Shown one piece after another: positions 3,362 to 27,918 of a stretch of DNA of 28,669 bases. Source of the stretch: a virus. The translations under genes were made by a program, and so were the position numbers. Location of the stretch: the IMG/VR virus record IMGVR_UViG_3300030202_001703, positions 1-28,669 of that record. One strand, written 5' to 3'. Position 1 is the stretch's first letter; every line of letters starts with the position of its first letter. The notes below the pieces were generated by a model, which was given only the letters and a program-made list of their open reading frames with translations, was not told the origin of the DNA and ran no database searches.

Positions 3362-4104
3362 TGAAAACATTTAAGACTGACCAAGAATACTACGGAGACT
3401 GGGAGTACACTACAAACTCTCAATTAGGTTACATTAAGAAAGGGTGGGAGTACTATGATATGATGAAGCGTGGAGGTATGATAGACTCACCTGCTTTAAG
3501 ATTCGGTAATTTAGTTCACACTCTTATACTAGAGCCTAAAGAGTTCCAACGTAAGTTTGTTGTAATTAATCCTGAAGATAGACCTGAACCAACTAAGTCG
3601 ATGGCAAGTAAATTAAATAAAGCTTGGAAGATTAAGATGGAGGAAAGAGAAGGTATTGTAATCGGAATGGATCAGTACAACTTAGCTTTGAATCTTCGGG
3701 ACAAGTTATCTAGGATTGATGAGGTTAAATCTATTTTAGATAACTCTGAGAAGGAAGTACCAAAGTGTTGGATAGATTTTAACACGATGCGAAAGTGTAA
3801 AGGTAAAGCCGATATAGTTGTAGATGGAGGTGATATGTTAGTAGACATAAAGACTACCTCTAAACCCATTAGTGAGTTTAGGAAGAGTGCTTACAGGTAC
3901 AATTACCACAGACAAGCTGCGTTCTATTTAGATGGCTTCGGAGCAAAGGAGTTTGTCTTTATTGTAGTAGAGACGCAAGAACCTTATCAAGTAGGTATAT
4001 TTAGATGTACTGAGAATTTTATAGACCAAGGTAGGCAAGAGTACGTTAGCTTACTGGAAATGTTAAACCAACCAAAAACTAAAGTAATACACGAAGAATT
4101 ATGA
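3361..4104 (+). CDS. PD-(D/E)XK exonuclease, RecE/DUF3799 type
   Basis: A 247-aa nuclease of the kind that chews one strand of double-stranded DNA ends for phage recombination. The family signature is visible in order: FGNLVHTLILEP (residues 48-59, His53), KGKADIVVD (148-155, Asp151), VDIKTT (161-166, the D-x-K core Asp162 and Lys164) and YNYHRQAAFYLDGF (180-193, with the family's Gln185 and Tyr189). The length fits this group. The gene follows the conserved 162-aa partner and two tiny membrane genes. It overlaps the next gene by ATGA. No RecT/Redbeta-type annealing protein is recognisable nearby, so the 162-aa protein may do that job or the host may supply it. Confidence 0.85.
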   Translation: MKTFKTDQEYYGDWEYTTNSQLGYIKKGWEYYDMMKRGGMIDSPALRFGNLVHTLILEPKEFQRKFVVINPEDRPEPTKSMASKLNKAWKIKMEEREGIVIGMDQYNLALNLRDKLSRIDEVKSILDNSEKEVPKCWIDFNTMRKCKGKADIVVDGGDMLVDIKTTSKPISEFRKSAYRYNYHRQAAFYLDGFGAKEFVFIVVETQEPYQVGIFRCTENFIDQGRQEYVSLLEMLNQPKTKVIHEEL

Positions 4105-4526
4105 AAAGTGAAGTTTTACCAAGACACGCAAGAACAAGATTGTTGAAGTGTCTACCAAAAGTTTGCGAATATTGGAATGTTAGTGCTGATGAAGTATTAA
4201 GTACAAGTAGAAAAAGACACATAATATACGCAAAGCACAGTTTAAGATATTTTTTACACACTTATGGAGATTTAACTGCTTGTGATATAGGTACGTTAAC
4301 TAATTGCGACCACTCAAGTGTTTTACACTCTGTAAAAACTTTTAAAGTTTATTGTGAATATGACGAAGATTTTAGAACTTTCAAGCGATTAGTTTCAAGA
4401 GAAACAGTTTGTGACATAGATTATAGCGTATCAAGTAAGATAAGAAAGATTATAAAGTCTAATAACTATATAAGCAAAAAAGTGGATTTAATCAAAAAAA
4501 TATTTGACTACAATGAAAATAGATAG
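4101..4526 (+). CDS. stand-alone DnaA domain IV-like DNA-binding protein
   Basis: A 141-aa protein. Residues ~14-100 look like the C-terminal DNA-binding domain of DnaA: VCEYWNVSADEVLS (21-34), RKRHIIYAKHSLRYFL (37-52, counterpart of the basic loop and following helix), then DIGTLTNCDHSSVLHSVKTF (62-81), where DHSSVLH (70-76) matches the DH(T/S)(T/S)VLH signature that contacts DnaA boxes. The ATPase and DnaB-loading domains of DnaA are absent. The C-terminal ~40 residues are basic and helical. The gene overlaps the exonuclease by 4 bases. It could mark a phage origin, compete with host DnaA or regulate transcription. Domain call is firm; role is inference. Confidence 0.75.
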   Translation: MKSEVLPRHARTRLLKCLPKVCEYWNVSADEVLSTSRKRHIIYAKHSLRYFLHTYGDLTACDIGTLTNCDHSSVLHSVKTFKVYCEYDEDFRTFKRLVSRETVCDIDYSVSSKIRKIIKSNNYISKKVDLIKKIFDYNENR

Positions 4527-4777: not shown

Positions 4778-5143
4778 ATGAGAGATTTATCTTTAAAAGG
4801 CGAGATTACAAAAATCGCTAAATTAGAAACTGGAACGTCAAAATCGGGAAAGGAATGGAAAAAGTTAGGGTTTGTTATCACCACAGAAGGTGAGTACCCT
4901 AAAGATGTTTACTTCACAGTATTTGGTGAAGAGAAAACTACAAACTTTATGACTTACAATAGAGTTGGTAAAATTGTAGAGGTATTCTTTAATATCTTTG
5001 CAAGAGAGTTTAACAACAAATGGTACACGGATCTTGGTGCGTGGAAAGTAGTTAGTGAAAAGATTACTGAATCTACTACTCCTGTAACAGAGACAGCTTC
5101 TGCTAACGGATTTCACAAAGCTACTGAAGATTTACCATTTTAG
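4778..5143 (+). CDS. ssb: DUF3127-type single-stranded DNA-binding protein
   Basis: A 121-aa OB-fold protein. The order LKGEITKIAKLETGTSKSG, WKKLGFVITTEGEYPKDVYF, VGKIVEVFFNIFAREFNNKW and YTDLGAWKV corresponds to DUF3127, a small SSB-like family common in Bacteroidota and their phages. The C-terminus ends EDLPF (117-121), like the acidic tip by which bacterial SSBs recruit partner proteins; a Thr/Ser-rich linker (~95-110) connects it. It would coat single-stranded DNA made by the exonuclease and helicase. The start carries AAAAGGATG, with a purine run too close to the ATG to be a normal Shine-Dalgarno sequence. Confidence 0.85.
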   Translation: MRDLSLKGEITKIAKLETGTSKSGKEWKKLGFVITTEGEYPKDVYFTVFGEEKTTNFMTYNRVGKIVEVFFNIFAREFNNKWYTDLGAWKVVSEKITESTTPVTETASANGFHKATEDLPF

Positions 5144-5370
5144 TTACTAAAGGTGTGGGTGATTAACTGTTAAACCCTTATAATCTCAGCTACAGAGTGC
5201 GATATTGCAAGACCAAACCTGAGAACCTTTTATAATAACGAGAGTGGGCTGCGTGAGTGCTACATATTCAAATCCTAGTTTTAAGCAATATGGCTAGGTT
5301 ATTCTTGTACGAGGGGAGTTAGATTTTGATTTGGTCGTCGGTTTTACTCTCCTCTACTTTTTTTTTTAAC
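5144..5370 (+). ncRNA. candidate structured RNA or leader ending in a terminator
   Basis: A gene-free 240-base gap in an otherwise packed operon. It folds on paper into four elements: a hairpin 5157-5177 (GGGT...ACCC with inner TTAA/TTAA); a long-range stem 5178-5189 with 5219-5224 and 5230-5235 (TTATAA/TTATAA and TCTCAG/CTGAGA) enclosing a small hairpin at 5199-5210; a stem CCTAG/CTAGG (5274-5278 with 5294-5298); and the terminator at 5311-5367. No TAnnTTTG promoter was found upstream, so it may be a processed operon RNA, an attenuating leader of the initiator gene, or a DNA origin structure. Confidence 0.45.
5311..5367 (+). terminator. Rho-independent terminator before the initiator gene
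   Basis: A 9-bp stem, GAGGGGAGT (5311-5319) with ACTCTCCTC (5346-5354), contains one G-T wobble and is followed by a run of ten T (5358-5367). The loop is long (26 nt). It lies inside the early operon, only 18 bases before the next start codon, so it probably attenuates rather than fully ends transcription. Confidence 0.7.
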
Positions 5371-5384
5371 CAAAGAAAAAACGA

Positions 5385-6011
5385 ATGAAAATGGCAAAGA
5401 GATTTACAGAAACAATGAAATGGAATGAGGATTGGTATTTAGACCTTTCCCTAGCAGATAAATTATTTTGGATATACATTTGCGATAATTGTGACCACGC
5501 AGGTATATTCAAACCGAATAAAAGAATGTTTGAGTTATTAATAGGTCACGAGATTAACGTACAATCATTCTTAGACAATGTAAACTTAAACAAACCAAGA
5601 ATTTGCGTTCTAGGTAATGGAAGGTGGTTTCTTACTGGCTTTATAGAATTTCAGTACGGCAATAAACTCAACCCTAATAACAGAGTACATAAGTCTATAT
5701 TAAAGTTATTGAATGAAAACGATATTAGTTTAGATTTTCCTAACAATAAAATTAGTTTAGCAGAACCTATTAATAATCGAAGAAATATTCCTGAGTCTGC
5801 CCAAGAAGTTATTACATACTTCCTAGAAAAAGGTAGCAACAAAAGGGAAGCTGAAAGATTCTTTTACTACTACGAATCCCAAGGATGGAATGTAGGTAAG
5901 AATCCAATGAAGGATTGGAAGATGGCAGCTTCAGGGTGGATTTCAAGGAATAAAAAAAATCAGCCTGACTCTGATTACTTAGGAGGTCAATTAAATGCTA
6001 TGAAGAACTAA
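5385..6011 (+). CDS. replisome organiser / replication initiation protein
   Basis: A 208-aa protein. The N-terminus (residues ~8-75: ETMKWNEDWYLDLSLADKLF, then YICDNCDHAGIF and FLTGFIEFQYG) is the winged-helix layout seen in phage replisome organisers. The C-terminus (~140-185: FYYYESQGWNVGKNPMKDWK, AASGW) resembles DnaD/DnaT-like helicase-loading segments. The helicase gene begins 1 base after its stop, the usual initiator-helicase pairing. A second in-frame ATG follows at 5391; either could be used, and the leader AACCAAAGAAAAAACGA gives no Shine-Dalgarno help. It would bind the origin and recruit the helicase. Confidence 0.75.
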   Translation: MKMAKRFTETMKWNEDWYLDLSLADKLFWIYICDNCDHAGIFKPNKRMFELLIGHEINVQSFLDNVNLNKPRICVLGNGRWFLTGFIEFQYGNKLNPNNRVHKSILKLLNENDISLDFPNNKISLAEPINNRRNIPESAQEVITYFLEKGSNKREAERFFYYYESQGWNVGKNPMKDWKMAASGWISRNKKNQPDSDYLGGQLNAMKN

Positions 6012-6012
6012 A

Positions 6013-6945
6013 ATGGCTCTTTATAAAGTAACCTCCAAACAAGAGGTGACTGATTATTGTAAAGAAATTTACTCTAATGGTTACACAAAGGGTCTTACTA
6101 CTGGTATCAAACCTTTAGACCCTCACTACACTTTCCGTAAAGGTGAACTAACTATAATGACTGGGTTCGCTAACATCGGAAAAACTACTACACAACTTTT
6201 TTTAATGATGATGGCTTCTAAGCTTTACGATTATAAGTGGCTTATGTATTGTCCTGAGAACGAACCTATCGGTGACTTGATGATAGACATAGCTGAGATG
6301 TATTGTGGTAAGACAGCCGACAAAGAATTTACCGATAGGATTAGTCAAGATAATTATCTAAGAGCTATTGAGTGGGCTTATGAGCATTTTACTGTGCTTA
6401 CATTTGATGAAACACCAACTGTAGATGAGGTGTTAGAGTCGTTTGAAGAGTATTTGCAAGTAGTTGAGATAGATGGTATATCTATAGACCCTCTAAACGA
6501 TTTAAAAGCACCACCAAAGGTAAGTAAATATGATTACTATTATGATGCTTTAAGTAATGTAAGAAGGTTTATTAAAAGGCACAATGTAATGTTTTACTTA
6601 GTGGTTCATCCTGGAACAGCAGCTAACAGAAGAAGAAACGAAGATGGTACTCGACCTGCTCCTAATATGAGTGATGTAGAGTTTGGTGCTATGTTCGGGA
6701 ATAGGGCAGATAACTTTCTTGTATTCCATCGTAACCCACAAAGTGAGAAGTGGAATGTTACTGAGATACACGCACAGAAGATTAAGTTTCAGAAGTTAGT
6801 CGGAGTGCCTACACCTGAACTTACACCTGTCTGTTTGTTTTATTCTTATAGTTTGCGTAGGTTTAGATACCTTAATGAGAACGGAACTTTAATTGATCCG
6901 ATACAAGAGACTATAATCAAAAGACCAACTAACGATATATTTTAA
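6013..6945 (+). CDS. DnaB-like helicase, RecA core only
   Basis: A 310-aa RecA-fold ATPase. TGIKPLDPHYTFRKGELTIM (30-49) leads into the Walker A loop GFANIGKTT (51-59). The Walker B strand is IDGISIDPLNDL (~153-164). An internal HPG (~200) and RADNFLVFHR (~230-240) correspond to the sensor and arginine-finger regions of DnaB/Twinkle-type helicases. The N-terminal primase-binding domain of full DnaB (~450 aa) is missing, as in several phage helicases. It would unwind the fork together with the initiator encoded just upstream. Its last codons lie in the first copy of a 31-bp direct repeat. Confidence 0.8.
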   Translation: MALYKVTSKQEVTDYCKEIYSNGYTKGLTTGIKPLDPHYTFRKGELTIMTGFANIGKTTTQLFLMMMASKLYDYKWLMYCPENEPIGDLMIDIAEMYCGKTADKEFTDRISQDNYLRAIEWAYEHFTVLTFDETPTVDEVLESFEEYLQVVEIDGISIDPLNDLKAPPKVSKYDYYYDALSNVRRFIKRHNVMFYLVVHPGTAANRRRNEDGTRPAPNMSDVEFGAMFGNRADNFLVFHRNPQSEKWNVTEIHAQKIKFQKLVGVPTPELTPVCLFYSYSLRRFRYLNENGTLIDPIQETIIKRPTNDIF

Positions 6946-6949
6946 TTAT
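6919..6949 (+). repeat. 31-bp perfect direct repeat, left copy
   Basis: Begins AAAAGACCAACTAACG and ends TTTTAATTAT. It encodes the helicase C-terminus (KRPTNDIF and stop) and reaches the first two bases of the next start codon. An identical copy lies at 7378-7408, exactly 459 bases downstream. Confidence 0.95.
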
Positions 6950-7391
6950 GAGTTTATACTTAACACCAATATTTCAAAGCGAAGCAAAAGAATTTGTTAA
7001 AAGACATCATAGACACAGTAAGCCACCTGTAGGTAGTATATTTCAAGTAGCAGTAGCTAAAGAAGGTAAGATAGTAGGAGTTGCTATAGTAGGTAGACCA
7101 GTAGCTAGAAACTTACAAGATGGATTTACTTGTGAAGTTATAAGATTAGCAACTGATGGAACTAAAAATGCTTGTAGTAAATTATATTCTGCCTCTTGGA
7201 GAGCAGCTCGAGCCTTGGGGTATAAAAAATTAATAACTTACATATTAGATACAGAACCTGGCACTTCATTAAAAGCAAGTGGTTGGAAGGAAATAGGTTT
7301 AGCAGGAGGTGGAAGTTGGAGTAGACACAGCAGACCTAGAATAGATAAGCATTCATTACAAACCAAAATAAGATTTGAAAAGACCAACTAA
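6948..7391 (+). CDS. XF1762-family GNAT-like acetyltransferase
   Basis: A 147-aa protein. The run HHRHSKPPVGSIFQVAVA, then GVAIVGRPVARNLQDG, EVIRLATDGTKNACSKLY, SASWRAARALGYKKLITYIL and TEPGTSLKASGWKEIG is the pattern of the XF1762 family, a small GNAT-related group found in phages and prophages; the substrate is unknown to me. The gene is bounded by perfect 31-bp direct repeats, and its last residues (KTN and stop) come from the right-hand copy read in a different frame from the helicase. This suggests that it arrived as a discrete cassette between helicase and methyltransferase. Confidence 0.8.
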   Translation: MSLYLTPIFQSEAKEFVKRHHRHSKPPVGSIFQVAVAKEGKIVGVAIVGRPVARNLQDGFTCEVIRLATDGTKNACSKLYSASWRAARALGYKKLITYILDTEPGTSLKASGWKEIGLAGGGSWSRHSRPRIDKHSLQTKIRFEKTN

Positions 7392-7409: not shown

Positions 7410-8495
7410 ATGCTAAAAGTAGGAACAGATTTTAGTGGTATAGGCTCACCCGAAGCAGCCTTAAGAAGATTAAATTTACCTCACAAAAATGTATTTGCTT
7501 GTGAGATAGATAAGTTTGCTAAACAAAGTTATTTAGAGCTTAACGATCCTGATACATTTTATGAAGATATAACTACTCGTAATCACAGCGAAGTAGAACA
7601 ATTAGATTTGTATGTAGCAGGATTTCCTTGCCAAGCATTTAGTTACGCAGGTAAAAGAAAGGGTTTTGCTGATGAGACAAGAGGTACATTGTTTTTCGAT
7701 GTAGCCGAATTTATCAGAGTAAACCAACCTAATTGTTTTATTTTAGAGAATGTAAGAGGATTAGTTTCTCACGATAAGGGAAGGACATTCCAAACGATTA
7801 CAGACATTTTATCTAATGGTGGTGGAAGTTTAAATGGTCAAGTAGGATTAGATACTATTGATAATGGTTTAGGCTATCACGTTTATTATAAGATACTAAA
7901 CACTAAGAATTTTGGAATACCTCAGAACAGAGAAAGGATATTTATAGTTGGTTTTAAGAACTGGAGAGAGTTTAGATTTCCTAAAGAGTTTCCGTTAGAT
8001 ATAACTTTGAAAGATTTATTAGAGTATGATGTAAATGAGAAGTATTACCTAAGTCAAAAGATGATAGATGGTTTTAATAGACACAAGGAAAGACACGAAG
8101 ATAAAGGGACTGGATTTAAGTGGCAACCTAAAAGTGGTGATGATATAGCTAATTGCCTTAGAGCTAATGCAGCTCTTTGTCCTACTGATAATAGTGTAAT
8201 AGTTCACAACCTACATCCAAGATGTGGCGATCCAAAGAAAGGAGGTACAGGTCATTTAAGTAAGACCGATGGTATTGCATATTGTTTAGATGCAGCTAAT
8301 AGTATTGCTGTTGAGAGAGAGCAAAAGATAAGAAGATTAACTCCACTTGAAACTTGGAGATTACAAGGGTTTACTGACAAGGAGTTTTGGAAGGCTCAAA
8401 AAGTAAATTCAGATACACAGCTTTATAAACAAGCAGGAAACACTATAACAGTTAATGTTATGGTAGAACTATTAAAGAAAATTTACCTAAAATAA
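7410..8495 (+). CDS. dcm: DNA (cytosine-5) methyltransferase
   Basis: A 361-aa enzyme transferring a methyl group from S-adenosylmethionine to C5 of cytosine. Visible motifs: I, DFSGIGS (7-13); IV, GFPCQAFS (71-78, catalytic Cys74); VI, ENVRGL (113-118); VIII, QNRERIF (172-178); then a target-recognition stretch (~225-300) and, near the end, LTPLETWRLQGF and QAGNTITVNV (motifs IX-X). All catalytic motifs are present, so it should be active. No restriction enzyme of known type is adjacent, although a PD-(D/E)XK-like protein lies two genes on. Phages use such orphan enzymes against host restriction or to mark their DNA. Target sequence unknown. Confidence 0.93.
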   Translation: MLKVGTDFSGIGSPEAALRRLNLPHKNVFACEIDKFAKQSYLELNDPDTFYEDITTRNHSEVEQLDLYVAGFPCQAFSYAGKRKGFADETRGTLFFDVAEFIRVNQPNCFILENVRGLVSHDKGRTFQTITDILSNGGGSLNGQVGLDTIDNGLGYHVYYKILNTKNFGIPQNRERIFIVGFKNWREFRFPKEFPLDITLKDLLEYDVNEKYYLSQKMIDGFNRHKERHEDKGTGFKWQPKSGDDIANCLRANAALCPTDNSVIVHNLHPRCGDPKKGGTGHLSKTDGIAYCLDAANSIAVEREQKIRRLTPLETWRLQGFTDKEFWKAQKVNSDTQLYKQAGNTITVNVMVELLKKIYLK

Positions 8496-12109: not shown

Positions 12110-15100
12110 TTATATTGCTTGTATTGTTATTCTTGCACCATAAATTTCGTCACTAGATGCACCTATATAAATTTTTATTATTCCATACTTACCAACCGCA
12201 AACTCGTGTGCTGTTGACAGTGTCATAGTGGTGTTCATTGTACCACTAGTTTGTACATTTGTCACCGAGTCTGCATTGTGATTCGCCTCAGCTAAATCAA
12301 AAGTTCTATTGTTCGCCCCGTAAACGTCTACTGCCGTAACCTCATAATCACTAGGTGTAAAAAACATAGCAAAAACGTATGTATGCCTAATATAAGTTGA
12401 GGGTTGAACGCTTCCACCATTATCTCTTGAATACATTTTAAATGTAGTTCCACTTGTAGTTAGAAAATCACTAGGCTTTAGGTAAATGTATTGTGTTGTT
12501 ATACCTTGGTATAAATTTTCAAGACTTGAGCCACCTGTTATTACGTTGGTTAGGTCATATAATAAAGGGCTTAATATTGACCCTGATGGATAAGATAATG
12601 TAAGTGTAAACGAAACTAAATCTATTACTGTATCACTTGTAGTTGAATCTCCTGCTGCTGTTAAAATTAATGGATTAGAGCCGTCAGGATAAGTTAATAA
12701 TAATTTTTGCCCATTATATATTTTACCCTTACTATTTGCACTTAATGTAACTTTTGTATCAGTTGTTCCATTAGTTAAAGTAGAAGTAATTTTACCATAG
12801 CTATTGTTGTCAAGCATCTGTCTACCTGCTGTGTTTTGCTGATTGACTATTTGCTCTGTATCACCAACTGGAGGTTGTGGAGAAGGTCCGTTAGGTGTCG
12901 TTCCACCTGTAATATTTGTAGTAATAGAATTTATTTTATACCATTCACCACTAAGTATTTCTGATTGAGCTTTAAATGTCCCTCCTAAAAAACTATAATA
13001 TTTAAAATTACTATCATCATTTATAGAGTACTTAATTAATTTTAATGGAGAAATATTATCACTTTGTATATCAGCTTGTAATATCTCTAAAGGCTCTACT
13101 TGTAATTGTAAAAACTCATTTACTAATAATTGTGATGCGTTTATATAACTACCACTATTACCTCTTCTAAATCCAGGTACTACTTCATAAATTGAGCCTG
13201 AGTTGTATTGAAAAGAATATAAACTATTAACTGAACTTTGACCTAAATTAACATCACCTAAATCAAATTGCTCAATAGCTGTATTATTAGTTTGTGTTGC
13301 AGTATATATAATACCATTAGTAACATCATTATCTTGATTATTTTCTGTTGGTATAAGTGTAATACTTTCACAAGTTACTGCTGTTGATCCTGGAGTCGGA
13401 TCGTTCAAATTTCCATATACAACACCACCCGTAGGTACTGTGTACATTTGATAATAATCATTATCACAAGTAAGTTGAATATAAAGATTTCCTGATATTG
13501 GAGGCTGTTCAACAATCGCATCAAAAATTAAGTCAGTATAAAATTGTTGATTATTGCTAACAGTAATGTTCGTACTACAAGGACCACCACTTTGACCATA
13601 TATATTACTAACAAGTCCTACAGCCATATTTGAAGTATCATTAACGGGTAGACTGGTGTTTGCTGCGTAACCTCTTTTAATGTCTATAGATGTAGATGTA
13701 TTTTGCCAAGTTAAAATATTACTCCCCTCAGTTTGTTTTAACCAATGATTATTAGTACCATCAGTTATATATATTGTAAGAGTACCAGTTGTTAAAAAAC
13801 TTGACCTATCTACACTATAATTAGATGCTATCGTTCCAGGCGCAACATTAAAACTGAAATCTGATACAGCCAACCTTTCATAGTATTTAGCAAAAAAACT
13901 TAATTGAAGTTCACCTGTTAATCCTGATTGTATCTGACCTGCAAGAAATGAAGTATTTAAAAATTGACCTGAACCTATATCAAAATTACTAAAACCTCCA
14001 TTATGATTTACTTTTACACTCTCAAAGCTAGGCTCATAATTAATTGTAGAGCCTTGTAAAATTACATTATTAGATTGGTCTATAGTAAGTAATGTATTTA
14101 CAGTTTCAGAAGGATTAACTATAGGTATTTGTGTGTCTCTATAATCGTAAAATTTTAAATCTCCTGATGTATTATCTGCTAAACTATTTGGTTGAATGAA
14201 ATTGTAATGACCCTCTGCTAAAAACCCAACAGTATTAAAACTTTTTAGAACACCATCAAATACATCAGATGGTTTGTATTTGTAAGCATCTTTATCCTCT
14301 TCAATATTATTATCTTCATCATAGGTTGTAGGTTTACTAACAAAACCTTTAGAAACAAAATAAAGTATAGCAGGGTTATTTGAGTCGTAATCTCCCTCTC
14401 TCCACCAGTCTAAACTTGTCCGAAGCCATCTAAACGCTGAAGGTGCTGGTGCTAAATTACCATAATTTGAGTTTACTATACCCATATCACTACCTATACT
14501 AACAAGAATGTCTTTTATACTATGTGCAGCATTTTTTTCAGCTTCACCACTAAAAAATCTATCTTTTTCTTTAGCCCAAAAACCATAAGAATCTGTTGCT
14601 GTTATATTAAATTCATAAGGATAAGGTGCGTTTTCTATAGCATCAAATGCAGGTTGTACCCACCCATACCACCAAATATTATCATTATTAACAGCACCTC
14701 TATATATTCTTATAAAATATTCTCTATAACCTAAATTAAATGAATCGTATAAAAAGTTTTCATCGGTATTATTTTCAACTATATAATTAAGTTTACACTC
14801 TGAACCTAAAAACTCTCTATCTCTTGTACCTCCACGACCATTCCAAGTAATCTCAAATCCTTCACCTCCAGTATTAAATTCAAGAGCAGGTGCAAAATAT
14901 TTTTTTAATGATATTGATTTAACATCTCCTGCAAAGGCAGCAAGAGGGTCTATATATAATTGAGTTCCGTTAGCTGTTAATATTTCGGTGTGTGTACCAT
15001 TTTCATTTAAAAGAGCCGTTGCTGCTGTTCCTAATTTTACTTGAACACTTCCTGCCGTTACACTAGCTAACTCTATTGTTACCTCATAAGCAGCACCATT

Positions 15101-15403
15101 TGTAAGTAAATTAGTATCAAAATTGTAAGGTAAAGCATCTGAATTACCTGCTGTGTGCCTTGCAGCACCTCCATTATCTGAAGTCCAAGACCAACCAGGT
15201 ATAGTAACTCCTTGACCTGTCCAATAAGTTATATAAGATGGTGAGTTTGGGAAATCTCTTGCAGCACTTGGGGAAGGATAAATAGAATCACTACCATCAA
15301 TTTCTGTATCAGCATAATCTTTTTTCCAAATCTCAATATTCCAATTTGAACCTTTTTCACCTAGAATGTTAGTGTATCGGTATTTACCAAATCTTAAAGC
15401 CAT
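12110..15403 (-). CDS. large tail-tip / receptor-recognition protein
   Basis: A 1097-aa structural protein directly after the tape measure gene and the only large tail gene there, so it must form much of the tail tip. Residues 1-44 and ~170-290 (EFNTGGEGFEITWNGRGG, then IRIYRGAVNNDNIWWYGWV) look like one tail-hub domain split by an insertion. The insertion, ~45-170, resembles a carbohydrate-binding-type beta sandwich (YEVTIELASVTAGSVQVKL ... DVKSISLKK). The remainder is Thr/Asn/Ser-rich and beta-structured, with a Pro/Gly linker (~848-858), as in receptor-binding tail proteins. No enzymatic motif seen. Confidence 0.7.
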   Translation of the reverse strand: MALRFGKYRYTNILGEKGSNWNIEIWKKDYADTEIDGSDSIYPSPSAARDFPNSPSYITYWTGQGVTIPGWSWTSDNGGAARHTAGNSDALPYNFDTNLLTNGAAYEVTIELASVTAGSVQVKLGTAATALLNENGTHTEILTANGTQLYIDPLAAFAGDVKSISLKKYFAPALEFNTGGEGFEITWNGRGGTRDREFLGSECKLNYIVENNTDENFLYDSFNLGYREYFIRIYRGAVNNDNIWWYGWVQPAFDAIENAPYPYEFNITATDSYGFWAKEKDRFFSGEAEKNAAHSIKDILVSIGSDMGIVNSNYGNLAPAPSAFRWLRTSLDWWREGDYDSNNPAILYFVSKGFVSKPTTYDEDNNIEEDKDAYKYKPSDVFDGVLKSFNTVGFLAEGHYNFIQPNSLADNTSGDLKFYDYRDTQIPIVNPSETVNTLLTIDQSNNVILQGSTINYEPSFESVKVNHNGGFSNFDIGSGQFLNTSFLAGQIQSGLTGELQLSFFAKYYERLAVSDFSFNVAPGTIASNYSVDRSSFLTTGTLTIYITDGTNNHWLKQTEGSNILTWQNTSTSIDIKRGYAANTSLPVNDTSNMAVGLVSNIYGQSGGPCSTNITVSNNQQFYTDLIFDAIVEQPPISGNLYIQLTCDNDYYQMYTVPTGGVVYGNLNDPTPGSTAVTCESITLIPTENNQDNDVTNGIIYTATQTNNTAIEQFDLGDVNLGQSSVNSLYSFQYNSGSIYEVVPGFRRGNSGSYINASQLLVNEFLQLQVEPLEILQADIQSDNISPLKLIKYSINDDSNFKYYSFLGGTFKAQSEILSGEWYKINSITTNITGGTTPNGPSPQPPVGDTEQIVNQQNTAGRQMLDNNSYGKITSTLTNGTTDTKVTLSANSKGKIYNGQKLLLTYPDGSNPLILTAAGDSTTSDTVIDLVSFTLTLSYPSGSILSPLLYDLTNVITGGSSLENLYQGITTQYIYLKPSDFLTTSGTTFKMYSRDNGGSVQPSTYIRHTYVFAMFFTPSDYEVTAVDVYGANNRTFDLAEANHNADSVTNVQTSGTMNTTMTLSTAHEFAVGKYGIIKIYIGASSDEIYGARITIQAI

Positions 15404-25862: not shown

Positions 25863-26360
25863 TTATTTGTATTTTTTTCTTAAATAACCCGTAATCCTTT
25901 GTAAATACTTGTAAATTTGCCTTGATGAAACCTTCTTAATTTTAGCTATTTCGGTTACTTTAAAGCCAAAAACATACCTTAATTCTACGATTTCTCTCTC
26001 TTTTTTAGTCAATAAATGGTGTATATCTGCCCAAATCATATCAGCAGTATAGTTATACTCTTCATCATTTATTTCTACAAATGGTATTTGACCTCTGTAC
26101 TTTTTATGAAATGGTGATGTACTTGAAAAAACTTGATTTGTAATAATCCTAGCTATATAAAATTTAAAGTAACCTTGTTCGTAGATAGTCTGTACAGACT
26201 CATCATTTTGATTAAGCAAAATTAAACAAACCTCTTGCACTAAGTCATCAACAAGGTAAAGGTTTTTATTGCTCCTAAGAACATTCGTACAAATCTCTAT
26301 AATTGAGTTGTACTCTTTTTCTACTATCTCGTTCTTAGATAAAAAATATTTCCTTGTCAT
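25863..26360 (-). CDS. sigma-70-like regulator between terminase and portal
   Basis: A 165-aa protein from ATG 26360; a GTG at 26375 would add five residues that lie inside the terminase gene. Residues ~13-80 resemble sigma region 2 (LVDDLVQEVCLILLNQ, FKFYIARIITNQVF). Residues ~115-162 resemble region 4 (LLTKKEREIVELRYVFGFKV, TEIAKIKKVSSRQIYKYLQR), the helix-turn-helix that reads the -35/-33 element. It overlaps the end of terL by 26 bases. Its place in the late operon suits control of late transcription or packaging. Whether it binds core RNA polymerase cannot be told from sequence alone. Confidence 0.75.
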   Translation of the reverse strand: MTRKYFLSKNEIVEKEYNSIIEICTNVLRSNKNLYLVDDLVQEVCLILLNQNDESVQTIYEQGYFKFYIARIITNQVFSSTSPFHKKYRGQIPFVEINDEEYNYTADMIWADIHHLLTKKEREIVELRYVFGFKVTEIAKIKKVSSRQIYKYLQRITGYLRKKYK

Positions 26361-27918
26361 CGTAAGCCGAGCCACCTTTGTTTTTATTTTCCATAGCCTC
26401 AGATAGTGCCATAATACAAGCTACGATACCATCAATCTTTTCGTTACTTTTTGCTTTATTTGGTTTTACGTTACCTGCAGGGTCAAGCGTAAGGACTACG
26501 TTACTCATCATCCATCTAAGGACTGGGTCTCCTCCGTGTCGAATCTTACCACTAAGTATTAGTGTTTCAAATTCTTTAGTTGCAGGTGACATAGTTTTAA
26601 ATCCTTGACCTACTGGAATACAAGGACAACCATCTTCTGTTAAATCAATTATTAGCTGACTTGAGTTCCATCGGTCATAAGCTACTATCTGAATATCAAA
26701 TAGTTCACTTAACTCAACAATCTTTTGCTTTATGTAGTTGTAGTCAGTTACATCTCCAGGAGTATAGATAACATAATTCTCTCTTTCCCATTTATCATAA
26801 TTTACCTTATCTCTCTCTGACCTTCTCTTAGCGTTTTCTTCAGGTACAAAATTGTAGTTAATTATATCGTAACCACCCTCTTCGTCAGGAAATAATAAAG
26901 CTAAACAAGTAATATCTCGTGTACTTGCAAGGTCTAATCCTGCAAAACAAGGTTTTCCTCTTAGATAATTTCTATCTACCTCACCATCACACAGCATCCA
27001 TTTCTCGTCACTAATCCACTTAGTTTCATTGGCAACCCATTGATTAGCGTGAAGTCTACGGAAAGTATTTTCGTATGAAGGCTCATTTTTTGCTTTAATA
27101 GCTTGTTGCTTCATATACTCTTCTTTAATGATTGTGCCATAACCTGGATTCGCTTTCTTCCAAACCTCTTCGCTAAAAATATCATCTCCTTCATCAGCCT
27201 CATATACAATTCCTAAGAACGAATCGTCCTCAATAGAACCATCAATTAATTTTTTAGAATAGTCGTAAAGCTCTCTCGATATGTGGTCTTTCTGATTACC
27301 TGCCCCTGCCGTAGTTATTCCTAACATTAGAGGTTCTTTTCTAGCACCCATAGAGGTAAGTAACACATCGTAAAGGTCACGATTCTTGTGTGAGTGAATC
27401 TCATCCAGTAAACAACAAGATAGGTTTAGTCCGTGCTTAGTATCTGCATCAGCCGAAATAACTTTGTAGTACGATCCAACTTTATCGTAAGTAATTGAAT
27501 CACGATAAGTACCTGCTCTTTTGATAAGGTTAGGTTCTTGTAAAACCATTTGTTTAGCTATCGAAAAACTTAACCTTGCTTGTTCTTTATCAGCAGCAGC
27601 CGATACAATCTCAGCTCCTTTCTCTCCATCAGAAAAAAGCATATAGAGTGCTATACCAACCATCATCGTAGTCTTTCCATTCTTACGAGGAATGAAGATA
27701 AAGCACTGTCTGAATTTTCTAAGCTTTGTTTTCTTAGACTTCCAACCAAATATAGCTTCTATGATTTCTATTTGCCAAGGCTCTAGTACAAATGGCTGAC
27801 CTGCTAACTCTCCCTTAGTGTGCTTACAAAAAGTTTGAATAAAGTCACAAGCCCTCTTCGCTGACTTCTCATCAAAGTAGTATTTAGTCTTGTTTATTCT
27901 GTGAAGATTATTCGCCAC
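26335..27918 (-). CDS. terL: terminase large subunit
   Basis: A 527-aa packaging motor and nuclease. ATPase: adenine motif near LEPWQIEIIEAIFGW (45-59), Walker A FIPRKNGKTT (75-84), Walker B CCLLDEIH (168-175), then the coupling motif (MLGITTAGAGN). Nuclease: FAGLDLASTRDITCLALLF near 320-340 supplies the first metal-binding Asp, VAYDRWNSSQL and the final DGIVACIMALSEA the others. The start is GTG at 27918, overlapping the small subunit stop by 11 bases. Belongs to the Terminase_1 (HK97/P27-linked) group. Confidence 0.94.
   Translation of the reverse strand: MANNLHRINKTKYYFDEKSAKRACDFIQTFCKHTKGELAGQPFVLEPWQIEIIEAIFGWKSKKTKLRKFRQCFIFIPRKNGKTTMMVGIALYMLFSDGEKGAEIVSAAADKEQARLSFSIAKQMVLQEPNLIKRAGTYRDSITYDKVGSYYKVISADADTKHGLNLSCCLLDEIHSHKNRDLYDVLLTSMGARKEPLMLGITTAGAGNQKDHISRELYDYSKKLIDGSIEDDSFLGIVYEADEGDDIFSEEVWKKANPGYGTIIKEEYMKQQAIKAKNEPSYENTFRRLHANQWVANETKWISDEKWMLCDGEVDRNYLRGKPCFAGLDLASTRDITCLALLFPDEEGGYDIINYNFVPEENAKRRSERDKVNYDKWERENYVIYTPGDVTDYNYIKQKIVELSELFDIQIVAYDRWNSSQLIIDLTEDGCPCIPVGQGFKTMSPATKEFETLILSGKIRHGGDPVLRWMMSNVVLTLDPAGNVKPNKAKSNEKIDGIVACIMALSEAMENKNKGGSAYDDKEIFFI

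Follow-up and report, generated by a model that had tools for sequence, protein, structure and literature searches.

Phage T4 gp32 binds a pseudoknot in the 5′ leader of its own mRNA, and this binding is autoregulatory. GOLLD RNAs contain or adjoin tRNAs. GOLLD and ROOL are large, ornate, highly structured RNAs of several hundred nucleotides that are associated with phages and contain pseudoknots (PMC12286853). In the STAXI motif a pseudoknot recurs in tandem, often with UUCG tetraloops, near genes for single-strand DNA-binding protein (SSB) and DNA handling, and 6S-flavo and Flavo-1 are noncoding RNAs of Bacteroidetes (PMC2864571).

The window analyzed here is the whole stretch of 28,669 nucleotides (28.7 kb) of the IMG/VR virus record IMGVR_UViG_3300030202_001703. 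Comparison with relatives shows that a genuine structured RNA is encoded on the plus strand of the gap between its SSB and putative replication-initiator genes (5144-5384). One unit of this RNA (unit A) recalls the T4 gene 32 element in that its pseudoknot adjoins the SSB gene of a phage, but it lies downstream of SSB instead of in a 5′ leader and also occurs away from SSB genes. Some arrays of this family have tRNAs inside or next to them, as GOLLD does. The RNA also shares with GOLLD and ROOL its phage association, structure and pseudoknot (PMC12286853), but the window copy measures only about 220 nt against several hundred, and its units recombine and occur alone. Like STAXI, it places a pseudoknot near SSB and other DNA-handling genes (PMC2864571); unlike STAXI, unit A is single copy (15/15 carriers among the 23 records tested) and has an outer stem and, in the window, no UUCG. 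It resembles 6S-flavo and Flavo-1 in being noncoding and in coming from what is likely the same host phylum. Unlike all of these, the window RNA had no match in Rfam 15 (4,227 families) at gathering thresholds; a relaxed search returned only far sub-threshold hits (top score 19.3, for a gathering score of 76.1), with none for the copy in L137, and the GOLLD and ROOL family models found no match. No description of this RNA was found in the open-access literature, in line with an earlier note on the window, made from sequence alone, which knew of no matching family. A structured RNA unrelated to Rfam, kept in single copy across phages of <30 kb to >90 kb and more conserved than the adjoining replication genes, is uncommon.

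The window comes from a tailed marine phage with terminase, portal, head and tape-measure genes on the minus strand and replication genes on the plus strand. The gap extends from the SSB stop to the next start, that of the putative initiator; after the initiator gene comes a helicase-like gene at 6013. A Porphyromonas phage encodes a distant relative of the putative initiator, which carries the annotation "replication initiation protein". The earlier note had correctly seen an ORF-free gap in a tight module: no plus-strand ORF of at least 40 aa is present, and the neighboring genes are almost contiguous. The hosts are likely marine Bacteroidota, judging from DUF3127, from TANNTTTG boxes near some copies and from weak matches to Porphyromonas and Tenacibaculum phages. 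Elsewhere in the window, a small protein two genes 5′ of SSB (4101-4526) has the DnaA C-terminal helix-turn-helix domain (Pfam E = 4e-12) and is a candidate origin binder. A Mom-like DNA modification protein adjoins a cytosine-5 DNA methylase (6948-7391 and 7410-8495), and a 1,097 aa protein encoded 3′ of the tape measure gene (12110-15403) has no PHROG match at E <= 0.001.

Table 1. Elements of the RNA and the two flanking genes in the window.
Feature	Positions	Strand	Sequence	Basis
SSB gene, upstream neighbor	4778-5143	+		PHROG 4932 (E = 2.6e-19), Pfam DUF3127
Unit A, pseudoknotted fold	5150-5229	+		46-sequence alignment, covariation
P1, outer stem of A	5150-5154 / 5225-5229	+	AAGGT / ACCTT	
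P2, helix of A	5157-5160 / 5174-5177	+		
Pseudoknot of A	5167-5170 / 5192-5195	+	CTGT / ACAG (RNA: loop CUGU with ACAG)	alignment of 46
P3, helix of A	5185-5189 / 5219-5223	+	CTCAG / CTGAG	
P4, small enclosed hairpin of A (5198-5209)	5198-5200 / 5207-5209	+		
Unit HCD (hairpin H, stem C, hairpin D)	5238-5367	+		covariation of all three elements
Unit H	5238-5264	+	ACGAGA, then bulged hairpin (5244-5263)	43 variants
H stem	5244-5249 / 5259-5263	+	GU-G-GGC / GCU-AC	
H loop	5250-5258	+	UGCGUGAGU (conserved, 9-base)	
Stem C (5274-5298)	5274-5278 / 5294-5298	+	CCTAG / CTAGG	covariation
Unit D, terminator-like hairpin (5307-5367)	5307-5319 / 5346-5357	+	GTA-C-GAGGGGAGT / ACTCTCCTC-TAC	
D inner hairpin, loop	5331-5336	+	UUGGUC (conserved hexaloop)	
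T run after D	5358-5367	+	ten T	
Putative replication-initiator gene, downstream neighbor	5385-6011	+		phrog_15768 (function unknown)

Relatives were collected from IMG/VR through the two flanking proteins, which led to 59 and 36 loci. The unit A alignment holds 46 sequences and 22 proposed pairs in four helices and a pseudoknot. Standard pairs fill 94.3% of the cells, and both sides have changed at 15/22 pairs. Double-change cells number 173, against 52.6 in shuffles, and the covariation score is 0.454 against 0.152; when the partners are slid by 1-3 bases, pairing falls to only 32-48%. The shuffles leave the kinship between sequences in place, but the many distinct pair types, together with the slid controls, make chance a very unlikely source of the covariation. 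The pseudoknot forms in relatives with other letters (GCAGU/ACUGC, CGGU/ACCG, AGAGU/ACUCU), and its pairs 27-56 and 28-55 have both sides changed in 7 and 15 sequences and are broken in none. The weakest pairs are the third of P4 (unpaired in 30/46) and the fifth of the pseudoknot (unpaired in 16), the latter being absent from the window. The covariance model finds the window copy with E = 3e-18, the window being a member of the training set. Weak scores or pattern scans also gave diverged A-like elements at L128:2032-2112, L213:2404-2484(-) and L232:1-110. By eye, these appear to keep the plan of unit A with other sequence: a GAGA/UCUC or GAG/CUC hairpin, a GAGU loop with ACUC, and a UAAGACU-like loop.

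The H hairpin, represented by 43 variants, is paired in 98.1% of cells and has 49 double-change cells against 14.6 in shuffles. Its search pattern fixed some flanking letters and left the three inner pairs of the five-pair bulged stem all free; these read AGC/GCU, CCA/UGG, UCC/GGA, ACC/GGU or GGU/GCC. The loop consensus is WRCGUGARY. An extra pair in this loop (GC/GU), predicted in the sequence set A2, was dropped, as it is not kept in UACGUGAAC variants. Stem C covaries widely, and occurs elsewhere as CCTGC/GCAGG, CCTCAAC/GTTGAGG, CCTACTG/CAGTAGG and CCTATTGG/CCGATAGG. The stem of D is built from many unrelated sequences that retain pairing around an invariant UUGGUC loop. The T run 3′ of D is long in the group of the window and weak in other groups, so termination may not be all that D does. 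A stem closing H and C (ACGAGA with UCUUGU) was rejected, being broken in several relatives. RNAalifold on A2 recovered the H, C and D stems with little covariation because the A2 sequences are too similar.

The earlier proposal of a structured RNA thus stands: compensatory changes occur in the stems of A, H, C and D among relatives, and the covariation is far above the shuffled and slid controls, despite an ordinary fold energy. The minimum free energy structure of the gap is not unusually stable (z = -0.93, equaled by 36/200 shuffles), and the earlier fold therefore needed relatives for its testing. Such RNAs go unnoticed because fold energy by itself gives no sign of them and because their phages are uncultured. 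In detail, the hairpin proposed at 5157-5177 is exact and covaries as P2, the small enclosed hairpin is P4, and the CCTAG/CTAGG stem and the T run lie where they had been placed. The long-range two-part stem (5178-5189 with 5219-5235) is half retained: CTCAG/CTGAG is P3, but the TTATAA/TTATAA half is a linker, with P1 forming instead. P1, the pseudoknot and the H hairpin had been missed, and the single RNA first envisaged is better described as two units.

Unit A was found by pattern scan in 55 IMG/VR contigs, and A and/or strict H matches in about 135 distinct IMG/VR records (165 pattern loci minus 29 same-record repeats, counted by hand). Nearly all these relatives are metagenomic, and many are fragments. 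The family is probably wider, since pattern searches favor close sequence. Units occur singly, jointly or in longer arrays, of which some include tRNAs. The gaps between SSB and initiator are of three kinds. The first, as in the window, has A, H, C and D, to which an additional inserted hairpin and a second H are added in some gaps. The second has A alone (L016, L018, L026, L028, L033 and L071, and in diverged form L038 and L040). The third has only a short GC-rich hairpin. The unit A model finds nothing in the 15 distinct hairpin-only sequences, all from related SSB-initiator loci, and the RNA is therefore present or absent there as a whole and has not faded. Exact A and C patterns gave 0 matches in 84,980 prokaryote genomes, so that neither host copies nor prophages were found. 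DNA similarity searches of phage records gave no match for the gap (50,697 records), nor when the A-H-D stretch from a relative of 94 kb served as the query. Between the window and L072, nucleotide identity is 94% in A and 92% in HC, but 80% in SSB and 67% in the initiator gene; the RNA is more conserved than the adjoining genes.

The A and H units adjoin many different genes. In the majority of the A loci examined for context, the unit lies directly 3′ of an SSB-like gene whose product ends in LPF. About 24 follow other genes (helicase, nuclease or unknown), for example a DEAD-type helicase gene in L144 and L176 and a PDDEXK-nuclease-like gene in L114, and H-C-D follows endonuclease-like genes in the L183 group. 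A protein gene separates A from the H unit in L128 and L195, so the two are independent units that tend to co-locate. In L114, L125 and L131 a strong terminator hairpin precedes the A-H-C-D RNA and the gene beyond the RNA is convergent, with no same-strand gene downstream.

We consider the gap to encode a phage noncoding RNA of a new class, about 220 nt long, composed of two separately folding units (A, and H with C and D) and acting in trans, and give this reading a probability of roughly 0.6. The conserved structure is independent of neighboring genes, which is the mark of a trans-acting phage noncoding RNA. Trans action is preferred because the loops are kept while the neighbors vary and because three copies lack a downstream target. 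The stand-alone small RNA of the earlier note is thus upheld by the covariation, the lack of an Rfam match, the varied neighborhoods and these three loci. Most likely, the RNA would be transcribed with the SSB-initiator operon, partial termination at D would set its 3′ end, and it would serve a phage or host protein as scaffold or binding partner. The remaining transcripts would continue past D into the genes for the initiator and the helicase. Between the T run and the initiator start codon lie only 17 bases, which leave no room for a promoter, so these genes should need either read-through or a promoter overlapping D. A role in phage DNA replication or defense evasion is a first guess, based on how often copies follow DNA-handling genes (SSB, helicase, endonuclease-like). 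With a covariation-backed structure, a covariance model and many natural variants in hand, the partner and purpose are directly testable.

As the earlier note had remarked, no promoter is evident just upstream of the RNA in the window. The nearest TANNTTTG box is at 4993-5000, inside SSB, and such boxes occur at chance frequency. Among relatives, this Bacteroidota-type box is weakly enriched close to the first unit (7 observed, 3.6 expected), as in L137, L174, L181 and L228. A sigma-factor-like protein encoded between the terminase and portal genes (25863-26375) might direct phage promoters, which would account for the lack of visible host-type ones.

The serious rival, which we judge unlikely, is that A is a cis element of the SSB message, protecting its 3′ end or serving SSB autocontrol, with HCD an added terminator or attenuator. 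The frequent position behind SSB fits this, including the many phages with A alone directly after SSB, a fact that counts against a trans RNA; so do the plain hairpin at the same site in related phages and the end of D just ahead of the initiator start. But the cis element has to accommodate the two dozen or so A loci behind other genes, an upstream gene on the opposite strand in L137 and L174, and a T4 counterpart that is 5′, not 3′. The attenuating leader of the earlier note fails as a general role at the three loci with a convergent gene, but here D may limit read-through into the initiator gene, the T run being so close to its start codon. More improbable still is a ligand-sensing riboswitch or processive antitermination RNA acting on its own transcript. 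The size, pseudoknot and highly conserved unpaired bases of A do recall small aptamers, and where A stands alone, a start codon follows about 25-40 bases after its end; against this, the downstream genes vary by locus, and three copies lack one on the same strand.

A replication origin or other DNA-level structure, also raised earlier, has very little likelihood, even with SSB, putative initiator and helicase genes adjoining the gap. Wobble pairs are strand-specific in A (14 G-U/U-G cells against 2 A-C/C-A) and in H, where one pair is U-G in 15/43, the second commonest form there, and thus favor a plus-strand transcript as the functional form. The same RNA recurs in non-origin contexts in unrelated phages, and close ones have a plain hairpin instead. 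GC skew does not turn at 5.1-5.4 kb, although in a phage of 28.7 kb whose skew follows gene strand the test is weak.

Beyond the trans-acting RNA itself, we tentatively entertain the possibility that A and H/C/D belong to one modular marine-phage RNA system, with interchangeable A, H repeats, linker hairpins, embedded tRNAs and 3′ domains joined into RNAs of about 80 to >500 nt, forming a phage-made RNA or ribonucleoprotein machine of a function new for RNA.

Longer arrays, with at least two H units and further hairpins, were seen in L137, L138, L146, L174, L195, L213 and L228. They also have another 3′ domain, AAGTCC..AGGCAA ... GTTGAAAG..CTTCAAC, which looks like a further structured unit. 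Within or beside H arrays are tRNA-like genes with an insert of about 75 bases (L216:12578-12721 and L138 at about 2200-2600). ARAGORN detected neither; Rfam scored the L216 gene as tRNA (E = 4.7e-6, with a long unmodeled stretch) and did not recognize that of L138. An ordinary tRNA-Val (CAC) directly follows the H unit at L204:368-441 and L221:12854-12927, as though H belonged to a transcript carrying the tRNA. A recurring element, GGTAATGTCTCAACAATACCAATAAGAC, found before or between units in L142, L144, L148, L166 and L202, is probably another RNA hairpin unit. Finally, larger phages encode a short protein, hydrophobic at its start (MEIFLGVICVILLYV...), directly after H-D (L144:5602-5784 and L146:1439-1636), followed soon after by a spore-photoproduct-lyase-like protein in L144 and a similar CxxxCxxC protein in L146.
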